36,927 nt of DNA, taken from positions 1-36,927 of the IMG/VR virus record IMGVR_UViG_3300035138_000014. The stretch is one strand, 5' to 3'. A program made the position numbers and the translations under genes. Each line of letters opens with the position of its first letter. The stretch's first letter is position 1. The notes under the pieces are model-generated. The model was not told the origin of the DNA, did not search any database, and saw only the letters and a program-made list of their open reading frames with translations. This document shows, piece after piece, positions 8,638 to 36,347 of this stretch. Origin of the DNA: a virus.

Positions 8638-8679
8638 TATATTATTATAAGTATATTATTATAAGTATATTATTATAAG
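8638..8679. repeat. Three perfect 14-bp tandem repeats at the divergent control region
   Basis: TATATTATTATAAG occurs three times without a mismatch (8638-8651, 8652-8665, 8666-8679). The array covers the -10 and the start region of the minus-strand promoter and the -35 of the candidate plus-strand promoter. It is the natural place for an operator or iterons for a phage regulator. Confidence 0.9.
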
Positions 8680-8695
8680 TATGTAACCATGTCAA
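8667..8695 (-). promoter_or_regulatory. Sigma70-like promoter of the minus-strand operon
   Basis: On this strand TTGACA (8695-8690) is followed after 17 nt by TAATAT (8672-8667). The -35 is perfect and the -10 lies in repeat 3 of the 14-bp array. Transcription would begin within repeats 1-2, about 40 nt before the leader peptide. Confidence 0.6.
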
Positions 8696-22166: not shown

Positions 22167-22403
22167 ATGTCTGAGATACCAACGATTACAATTTCCGAAT
22201 TTAAGCTACTTAAAGTAAAGGAAATCAAAGAGATGAAGTCCTGCGAAATAATCAGTGACGGTGAATATCTCTGTACTGTTGTAATACCTCCGAAAAACGG
22301 AGGTATTACAATAACCGATCATATCAGAGCAAGGGCTGAACAGGCTGGCTTTTCTGGAAATTCAGTCGGAGGTAAGGAATATTCTCACATAAAAGGAGGA
22401 TAG
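22167..22403 (+). CDS. Hypothetical protein (78 aa) containing a coding hairpin
   Basis: SD AAAGGAAG precedes ATG 22167. VKEIKEMKSCEIISDGEYLC is followed by VVIPPKNGGITI, which is encoded by a 14-bp perfect inverted repeat, and then a Gly-rich end (HIKGG). Function unknown. Confidence 0.6.
   Translation: MSEIPTITISEFKLLKVKEIKEMKSCEIISDGEYLCTVVIPPKNGGITITDHIRARAEQAGFSGNSVGGKEYSHIKGG
22279..22311 (+). repeat. 14-bp perfect inverted repeat inside a gene
   Basis: TTGTAATACCTCCG (22279-22292), loop AAAAA, CGGAGGTATTACAA (22298-22311). All 14 pairs are Watson-Crick. The 3' arm contains CGGAGGT, an SD-like string that the stem would hide. Confidence 0.9.
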
Positions 22404-34202: not shown

Positions 34203-34402
34203 CTGAACGATCAGAGGTTCATCACATCAATGATGATAGTAAATATCGTGTTTCCTATGAGCAGTCGGCTACCAAAGGAATACTAGGTTTCAAGGTAGAA
34301 TCTCACGGAAATGACCTTATGCAGTGTCATCTTGATGCAGTTGAACTATTAGAAAAGGCTTATAAACAGTCGAAGATATACTCGGAAAACAAGGAGGGAT
34401 AA
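34199..34402 (+). CDS. Hypothetical protein before the annealing protein (67 aa)
   Basis: GGAGGG precedes the ATG. SEVHHINDDSKYRVSYEQSA, GILGFKVESHGND then CHLDAVELLEKAYKQS is a short beta sheet plus helix. In this position phages often carry single-strand binding helpers, but no such motif is seen. TAATG overlap with the annealing gene. Confidence 0.6.
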   Translation: MTERSEVHHINDDSKYRVSYEQSATKGILGFKVESHGNDLMQCHLDAVELLEKAYKQSKIYSENKEG

Positions 34403-35445
34403 TGCCAATAACCGAAGCTGAAATGCCCTATGAAGATATGAAAAAATCAGCTGATACTCATCGTTGTGCCTGCGGTGGTCGGCTTAATATCGCCTGGGGT
34501 GGCAGCTTCGGTTATGACTGTTACATTCTTCGGTGTTCAGAAAATATCGAACACAAAACGATAACCAGGCACAGTAAGAAACAGGAAGATTACGAAAATT
34601 TAAGGAGGGAAGTTTTCAAATTGGATACTAAATCACTTCAAACAATGACGGAAACTCAGATGATAACCCGTATCGACATGGCGAAGTTTCCGCAAGACCT
34701 GACAAAGACAGATAAGAAGATGCTCGCCGAAGCTGCCATCTCTTACGGATTTGATCCATTGATGGGTGAGATATCAGTCTACCAGGGTCGACCTTTTATT
34801 TCGATCGATGGTCGGTACCGGAAAGCCCAGGAAACCGGACTGCTGGATGGCGTCGAAACCAGACCAGCAACCAAACAGGAGCGGGAAGACTGGCAGATAC
34901 CGGAGGGAGATTACTTCTTCCGCGCGGAGATTTACGTCAAAAACACCGGACATCCTTTCATCGGCTGGGGACGGGTCCGGAAATCAGAAATGACCGGCGG
35001 TAAAGGATATAAACCTGTTGAGACAAATCCCCAGCGCATGGCGGAAAAGAGAGCCGAAGCTCAGGCGCTCAGGAAAGCATTCCACATTCCTCTACCTTCA
35101 ATCGAGGATATCGGAAATCTTGAAGAACAATACGTACAGCCTGAATATGACATCGATAGCACAGCACGGATTGTCGATGAAGAAACCGGTGAAATTACCG
35201 AAAATGAACCCGTACCAGAACGCACAGAATCGAATTCTACAGAGCAAAAGCCGGAAAGCAAGGGGAATGATAAGCTAGTACGCGATCCTGCATCAATCAA
35301 GTCGATCACCGATTTACAAAAGGCCTGTCAGGATGACTTCGGAATGAAACGGGCTGATTGCCTGAAAGAATTGAATATCGCTTCCTGGCCGGACTTGGCG
35401 ATAACTCCGGCAGAAGCATACGAACAGATTAAGAGTGTGAGATAG
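34402..35445 (+). CDS. RecT-like single-strand annealing protein with N-terminal zinc ribbon
   Basis: 347 residues. Residues about 22-60 hold CACGGRLNIAWGGSFGYDCY and ILRCSENIEHK, a zinc ribbon. The RecT/Bet-like core spans about 95-235: FPQDLTKTDKKMLAEAAISY, GFDPLMGEISVYQGRPFISI, YFFRAEIYVKNTGHPFIGWG and MAEKRAEAQALRKAFHIPLP. The last 100 residues form an acidic linker plus a small helical domain. The family anneals complementary strands during replication and recombination. No partner exonuclease gene was recognised. An internal SD (34602-34609) with an in-frame TTG 34621 could give a core-only form. Confidence 0.85.
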   Translation: MPITEAEMPYEDMKKSADTHRCACGGRLNIAWGGSFGYDCYILRCSENIEHKTITRHSKKQEDYENLRREVFKLDTKSLQTMTETQMITRIDMAKFPQDLTKTDKKMLAEAAISYGFDPLMGEISVYQGRPFISIDGRYRKAQETGLLDGVETRPATKQEREDWQIPEGDYFFRAEIYVKNTGHPFIGWGRVRKSEMTGGKGYKPVETNPQRMAEKRAEAQALRKAFHIPLPSIEDIGNLEEQYVQPEYDIDSTARIVDEETGEITENEPVPERTESNSTEQKPESKGNDKLVRDPASIKSITDLQKACQDDFGMKRADCLKELNIASWPDLAITPAEAYEQIKSVR

Positions 35446-36000
35446 GATTGGGAAAGCGGACATATCGCAAATCAAAAAGCTCGACCGTAATCTGAATAAG
35501 GTTGCCTAATGACGTGTTGTATACAACGTTACGCAGAATAAACGGTAGGCGGTCAAGGTGGTCATCTGTGGGGGAATACATTAAAGACCGGATTATCTAT
35601 GATGTACGGCGAAGTCATGGGCAGAGAAAGGAAAGTTGAGGAAGGAGTTAATTGAATAGGCTTGCTGGTATGGGAGACGCCACTGTAAGCAGGGTGCGTA
35701 AGGTTGGCAGTATAAAACGCCCCTCACCAGCAAGAATGCCGGATACCGAAACCGTAAGGGAGTAGGAGTTTCGAGGGCTGTAGCATCAAGTTATAGCTCT
35801 AAGGAGTGACAAGTGCGAGGTATAGGGTTCTTACCGCTTGAGGCATTTGACTGACCCACCTAGCTACTATCCGGTAAAAGGACTCGTAAGGTGGGAGTGT
35901 AAGTTGAACTCGATAGTGAGTGGCGGAAAACCGAAATCTTACCTTGCGAGTCCAGCCTGGAAAACCGAAAGCGTGAGTAACATAGAAAAAGTTATAGAAA
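35446..36000 (+). ncRNA. Large structured noncoding RNA, class unassigned (about 555 nt)
   Basis: No convincing gene on either strand over 555 nt, yet the region is rich in stems. The longest is GGACTCGTAAGGT (35880-35892) with ACCTTGCGAGTCC (35941-35953), 13 pairs including a G-U. Others: CTTGCTGGT/ACCAGCAAG (35661-35669/35726-35734), AGGGCTGTA/TATAGCTCT (35774-35782/35792-35800), CGAAAC/GTTTCG (35747/35768), TTACCG/CGGTAA (35831/35872), GACCG/CGGTC (35483/35550), and a GTTGTATACAAC palindrome (35516). CGTAAGG recurs at least three times and AAAACCGAAA twice in loops. Size, position in a phage and stem density recall ornate phage RNAs such as GOLLD or ROOL. I cannot assign a class. Confidence 0.65.
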
Positions 36001-36087
36001 ATGAAAAGATGTGAGATTTGCAAAACACCTTTAGTCAAGAATAGATGCGTGAATAAACTCTGCCCTAAATACGGGAGAGTAAAGTAA
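36001..36087 (+). CDS. Cys4 micro-protein (28 aa)
   Basis: MKRCEICKTPLVKNRCVNKL then CPKYG, four Cys arranged CxxC...C-x4-C. No SD is clear; it follows the structured RNA by no gap. Its TAA overlaps the next ATG (TAATG), which supports translation. It may be chance. Confidence 0.45.
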   Translation: MKRCEICKTPLVKNRCVNKLCPKYGRVK

Positions 36088-36347
36088 TGTTACAGCCGAC
36101 GAAAGAAGTTGATTATCGAGAAGCAGAAAAGACATTAAGGGCTTATCTTAAAGAACATGGGTATTCTGTATCTAAAACCCCATTAAGTCCCGGAAGCTGG
36201 AATCGGTGGGAATATAGTAATAGTCCATTCTGGTCAACTGTCTGCATGGTTTATATCAATCTTAATCTAAAAATGATTGGTTTTCATATTCACGATAACG
36301 GTGAGGTTATAGAGATTGAACTACAAAGTAACTTCAACCAGGAATAA
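36087..36347 (+). CDS. Hypothetical protein (86 aa)
   Basis: GGGAG upstream. EVDYREAEKTLRAYLKEHGY, then WEYSNSPFWSTVCMVYINLN and GFHIHDNGEVIEIELQSN is a helix followed by three beta strands. Not recognised. Its 3' end overlaps the next gene by 32 nt. Confidence 0.65.
   Translation: MLQPTKEVDYREAEKTLRAYLKEHGYSVSKTPLSPGSWNRWEYSNSPFWSTVCMVYINLNLKMIGFHIHDNGEVIEIELQSNFNQE

Follow-up and report, generated by a model that had tools for sequence, protein, structure and literature searches.

The window, by which we mean the whole stretch of DNA analysed, is a virus record of 36,927 bp. It carries a gene for a RecT/Bet-family single-strand annealing protein and, further downstream, a replication-initiation-like gene (Table 1), and the ORF list showed no long ORF between these two genes in 35446-36000. 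The sequence-only reading had proposed that all 555 nt of this interval form a structured non-coding RNA of the early operon. The core of that proposal, including the possibility of a new class unlike the known giant RNAs, was supported by the test it had itself named, namely homologues with covarying pairs; at least three further phage records (here G001, G002 and G007) carry such homologues, in comparable positions. The extent was not: the structured RNA proper spans about 35652-35960 on the + strand (~300-350 nt), with its 3′ end somewhere in 35953-36000, and it is shorter than 555 nt because the first ~200 nt resemble a decayed or interrupted small gene. A family search with the Cys4 micro-ORF that follows the RNA gave no convincing match, and ARAGORN found neither a tRNA nor a tmRNA in the window. 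Elsewhere in the window, a 16-bp hairpin (GTTGTAATACCTCCG/CGGAGGTATTACAATA, 5-nt loop, 22278-22313) that forms on both strands lies among late genes and may be terminator-like or regulatory, and a short tandem repeat of TATTATTATAAGTA-like units (8640-8683) lies in the intergenic space between divergent genes.

Table 1. Features at and around the structured RNA, in window coordinates
Feature	Position	Strand	Basis
RecT/Bet-family ssDNA-annealing protein gene, upstream of the RNA	34402-35445	+	phrog_252, E 5e-11; Pfam RecT, E 4.8e-6, above its cut-off
Probable ribbon-helix-helix-like small gene, outside the RNA	35448-35639	+	tblastn to L009 10689-10895 of G001; in-frame TGA at 35493-35495
Structured RNA proper (5′ word, P1, P2, P3)	35652-35960	+	homologous architecture in G007, G002 and G001; covariation; Rfam-negative
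Conserved 5′ word AATAGGCTTGCTGGT	35655-35669	+	exact in G007 (L049 1501-1515) and G009 (L051 1501-1515)
P1 5′ arm CTTGCTGGT	35661-35669	+	pairs with 35726-35734; arm sequence kept in relatives
P1 3′ arm ACCAGCAAG	35726-35734	+	(G)CCAGCAAG in G007 and twice in G001; CCAGCAAA in G002
P2 5′ arm GCCGGATA, then CCGAAA	35738-35745	+	descriptor match unique in window; covariation
Hairpin AGGGCUGUAGC-aucaa-GUUAUAGCUCU within P2	35774-35800	+	11 bp, three G-U; minimum-free-energy fold of the window only
CTAC (35864-35867) and P2 3′ arm TATCCGGT (35868-35875)	35864-35875	+	CTRC and complementary arm in all copies
P3 5′ arm GGACTCGTAAGGTGGGA	35880-35896	+	17-bp stem, best of the window
P3 3′ arm TCTTACCTTGCGAGTCC	35937-35953	+	17-bp stem, best of the window
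Cys4 micro-ORF, 28 codons, downstream	36001-36087	+	sequence; not kept beside the RNA elsewhere
Replication-initiation-like gene	from 36681		phrog_16167 and phrog_5718 matches

The frame that occupies the first third of the interval translates to LGKRTYRKSKSSTVI, an in-frame stop, and IRLPNDVLYTTLRRINGRRSRWSSVGEYIKDRIIYDVRRSHGQRKES up to the final stop, and it resembles a ribbon-helix-helix protein. Over 54 residues it aligned with an intact 68-aa ORF of G001, which among the terminase relatives is the closest (TerL identity 68%), at 37% identity in tblastn. With an X placed at the stop the E value was 0.002, compared to 0.014 for the best of 100 shuffled queries, and a search of the single genome gave 1e-4. 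This reading was unrecognised by any of the profile libraries and its codon score was low, so the frame is graded only as a probable, not a proven, ribbon-helix-helix-like gene. This phage uses TGA as an ordinary stop, at the end of 15 of the 46 ORFs taken as genes, and the internal TGA may be a nonsense mutation, a case of recoding or an assembly error. The earlier statement that the interval holds no credible gene is thus doubtful for the first third. Two further open stretches lacked a family match. These are a TTG ORF of 37 codons at 35652 with a Shine-Dalgarno-like AAGGAG, and an open stretch at 35826-36014, and a protein-coding reading of 35652-36014 was rejected given the weak codon signal and the absent family match. 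Two alignments to G002 were also set aside. Window 35520-35674 aligned to a coding gene at chance level or as an old remnant, and for window 35604-35719 against L001 2519-2625 the score was reached by 5 of 1000 shuffles and equalled by unrelated stretches.

The 13-bp stem described before, GGACTCGTAAGGT/ACCTTGCGAGTCC with a 48-nt loop and one G-U pair, was confirmed at 35880-35892/35941-35953. When further G-U pairs were allowed it grew to a stem of 17 bp over a 40-nt loop, here called P3. P3 was the top-scoring uninterrupted stem of the 36.9-kb window (span ≤200 nt), a score that was reached in none of 200 shuffles, and it formed on the + strand only. As P3 needs its G-U pairs, it belongs to the RNA level and to the + strand. 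The surrounding region also folded more stably than shuffled sequence, with z -2.7 for 35640-36000 (2/300) and z -2.98 for 35650-35985; over the region the + strand values ranged from about -2.1 to -3, and the - strand fold was much weaker (z -1.25). Inside the region, 150-nt windows were unremarkable except for 35821-35970 (z -2.4). Fold energy alone is weak proof, because random 361-nt coding windows were also shifted below zero (mean z -0.87, with 15% below -1.9). Over the whole region, z was -2.98 in the window, -2.27 in G007, -2.31 in G002 and -3.84 in G001, again with a weaker - strand where this was tested.

The homologues were reached by different routes. In a blastn search of the region against the terminase relatives, G007 (19/20) and a further phage, G009 (15/15), matched the same query bases from 35655, and both matches sit immediately after early-operon genes. 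Allowing up to 2 mismatches, no further copy of this 5′ word was found in the window or in the scanned parts of the relatives. Among four relatives reached through RecT, only G002 (L001) had the RNA, and G003, G004 and G005 had ordinary genes after RecT and no RNA. The G002 stretch is 464 nt of non-coding sequence with a similar folding bias and no sequence similarity to the window. A copy of about 750 nt that follows the ERF annealing gene of G001 was located with P1 and P2 words taken from the G007 architecture. Together, G007, G002 and G001 share with the window the order of 5′ word and P1, a covarying P2 and a strong P3, and in every phage copy the RNA lies on the coding strand of the operon and is flanked by early genes. 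P1 is conserved at the level of sequence (CTTGCTGGT ... ACCAGCAAG), and the 5′ word AATAGGCTTGCTGGT and P1 arms of the form CTTGCTGG/CCAGCAAG, which we used to define the family, were both found.

No RNA copy was found by blastn or with the RNA model at the 17 loci reached through the replication initiator. Searching 31 records with the full P2 model added no convincing member, a pattern search of 20 of these records gave no further copy, and scans of genome contigs found none. Blastn with the window, G002, G007 and G001 copies against annotated phages and plasmids returned nothing convincing. Three other observations were made in the relatives. G009 carries a short version (L051 1498-1632) in which the 5′ word and P1-like ends surround a ~100-nt insert; P2 is absent from it and its fold is unremarkable (z -0.48). 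On the - strand of G004, opposite to RecT, P2-like arms with 7/8 pairs and TTTGACTAC before the 3′ arm run from L018 1269 to about 1190, possibly by chance. A second non-coding stretch of G002 (L001 2490-2830; z -2.98, 13-bp hairpin) may be another structured RNA.

P2 has the general form GCCnnnnA ... CTRC followed by the complement, and CTAC or CTGC stands directly before every 3′ arm. The arms are GCCGGATA/TATCCGGT in the window, GCCAGCTA/TAGCTGGC in G007, GCCAGCCA/TGGCTGGT in G002, and GCCAACCA/TGGTTGGC and GCCAGCCA/CGGCTGGC in the G001 copies G001B and G001C. Across these five copies from four phages, 4 of the 8 pairs were altered on both sides. In the alignment (A4), made by hand from trimmed arms with two of its five rows from G001, 97.5% of the cells were paired, compared to 5-52% when the arms were slid by 1-3 columns. 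Statistics at the level of R-scape are out of reach with only four phages (five copies) carrying P2. A descriptor (GCC plus 5 nt; CTRC plus an 8/8 complement), the design of which had seen the window copy, gave a single match in each of these phages, always where P2 was expected; the scan of 466 kb contained no further match, and 2.2 Mb of shuffled sequence yielded none at all. Nevertheless, although P2 with covarying pairs and the conserved CTRC is present, the window copy escaped R2, a leave-one-out covariance model of P2 that excluded it, probably due to the 126-nt spacing of this copy, which is the longest loop, and its most diverged arm. What places the window in the family is therefore the 5′ word, P1, the element order and the descriptor.

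In all four copies (window, G007, G002 and G001C) P3 begins 4-6 nt after P2. Its 5′ arm starts with GGACTCG in the window, GCTTGAGC in G007, GCTCTCGGGT in G002 and TTGGGCC in G001C, and each has its full complement even though the arm sequences are unrelated. The corresponding stem p values were 0/1000, 0.022, 0.003 and 0.107, so that the window, G007 and G002 are individually below 0.03 and G001C is not. A fourth element, P4, consists of a short stem, an internal loop and a G-rich stem of 9-10 bp; it is present in G007 (p 0.003), G002 (p 0.043) and, by eye only, in G001C. P4 is absent from the window copy, and we do not hold it to be obligatory.

The shared elements bear on the possibility that the region has no RNA function and consists of decayed genes with chance stems. 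Such decay would fit the in-frame TGA of the probable gene in the first third, the TTG ORF with its AAGGAG and the second open stretch with their weak codon signal, and a fold energy that taken alone is only mildly unusual. However, it would leave the covarying P2 of five copies and the element order common to four phages to chance, and both further open stretches are without a family match. We consider this very improbable.

Some finer points of the sequence-only reading did not carry over to the relatives. CCCACC (35855-35860) and GGTGGG (35890-35895) are present, but the pseudoknot or alternative state proposed for them found no support, because the bases that precede CTAC differ in every relative. 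The repeated loop words (three CGTAAGG and two AAAACCGAAA) are within chance for 555 nt by our own estimate, and no conserved counterparts were seen by eye. The idea of repeated modules failed for the words named, but in G001 modules of the RNA are repeated. At L009 1166-1912 of that phage there are six families of direct repeats with spacings of 115-363 and 80-100% identity, a pattern that duplication or nesting of P1-P2 units would produce.

A comparison with Rfam 15 (4227 families; gathering score and, for the window, E≤5) gave no match by cmscan for 35200-36300, and the relatives gave only chance-level matches at E≤2. GOLLD, ROOL, HEARO and the group I/II introns, the families proposed earlier for this check, were thus without a match. 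The RNA belongs to a family absent from Rfam and by kind resembles the large structured RNAs of phages, which are few and have unknown functions (PMC12286853). ROOL is one of these, found in phages and prophages, with many stems, no known function and often a position near tRNA islands (PMC12286853). The window RNA also has many stems, but it is about 300-350 nt long, does not match the ROOL model, and lies beside annealing-protein genes in a window free of tRNAs. In GOLLD, where many members are longer than 800 nt and also sit near tRNA islands, one part is more conserved than the other (PMC12286853). The same can be said of the window RNA, but the conserved part is the 3′ region in GOLLD and the 5′ word here, and the GOLLD model was unmatched. 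The genomic setting is one that our RNA has in common with the operons of phage ssDNA-annealing proteins (RecT/Bet, ERF). To our knowledge no RNA of this kind has been described in such operons, and the literature consulted, mostly outside subscription papers, reported no RNA for phage annealing operons.

Phages can carry HEARO RNA and group I/II introns, which have several stems, and the RNA might be what remains of such an intron-like or transposon-associated mobile element after loss of its protein and spread among early operons, with nested or repeated copies in G001. The repeated modules of G001, a size range of ~135 to ~750 nt among the phages, and the different flanking genes would all agree with this. 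In contrast, the Rfam search that remained negative included the intron and HEARO models, no split gene was seen, and the ORF lists hold no associated protein. The RNA is intergenic in 5/5 phages and never inside a gene, and no conserved 3′ end was seen. A mobile remnant is thus unlikely in our judgement.

The replication-initiation-like gene near the RNA in the window may also suggest a part of the replication origin, acting at the DNA or RNA level as a structured origin or as a primer RNA beside the initiation gene. However, a role as cruciform DNA is unlikely because the stems rely on G-U pairs and on the strand, the repeated words lack an iteron-like spacing, and the downstream genes differ in G001, G002 and G009. 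There is little probability in an origin part on these grounds.

The neighbourhood also bears on a cis-acting intercistronic element, the fold of which would work only inside the early mRNA. It could, for instance, form a barrier that sets how stable the upstream annealing-protein mRNA is or how well the following gene is translated. In 5/5 phages the RNA lies between genes of one operon, and in G007, G002 and G009 it starts at, or within about 10 nt of, the upstream stop codon; in the window the 5′ word begins 16 nt past the stop of the probable small gene. An annealing-protein gene lies upstream in three phages, as RecT in the window and G002 and as ERF in G001. However, the upstream gene is a phrog_19042 member of unassigned function in G007 and unassigned in G009, RecT is separated from the RNA by two small ORFs in G002 and by the one probable gene in the window, and no downstream gene family is common to the phages. 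This variation on both sides argues against cis-regulation of one particular gene, and the element, at 300-750 nt and with duplicated modules, would make a large intercistronic regulator. We regard a cis-acting element as possible but doubtful.

The explanation we propose, with a probability of about 0.6, is that window 35652-~35960 encodes a structured non-coding RNA of a non-Rfam family that is carried in a phage lineage's recombination/replication operon, made with the early transcript, stable, and active in trans. Matches resembling a promoter or a terminator were absent at the RNA, which would thus most probably be made as part of the polycistronic early transcript. The stems may protect the RNA and give a stable species from this transcript. 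Once processed, the stable RNA could act in trans during replication or recombination of the phage DNA. In this model a partner would recognise P1, whose sequence is conserved, and the covarying stems P2-P3(-P4) would serve as the scaffold. Judged from the sequences compared, a changing neighbourhood around a fixed P1 favours a putative trans-acting RNA over a single-gene regulator.

More speculative, and in our view rather unlikely, is the extension that this is a new class of modular trans-acting phage RNA that works with or protects single-strand-annealing recombination, for instance by tying up a host nuclease or a defence protein that monitors phage recombinases. Phage homologous recombinases are among the known targets of defence systems (PMC11846896), and an RNA in a recombinase operon is for this reason worth testing against such systems. 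A family that is absent from Rfam, is tied to recombination operons and has a conserved stem would give a concrete handle on an RNA partner, or on an RNA-based protection, of annealing-protein operons.
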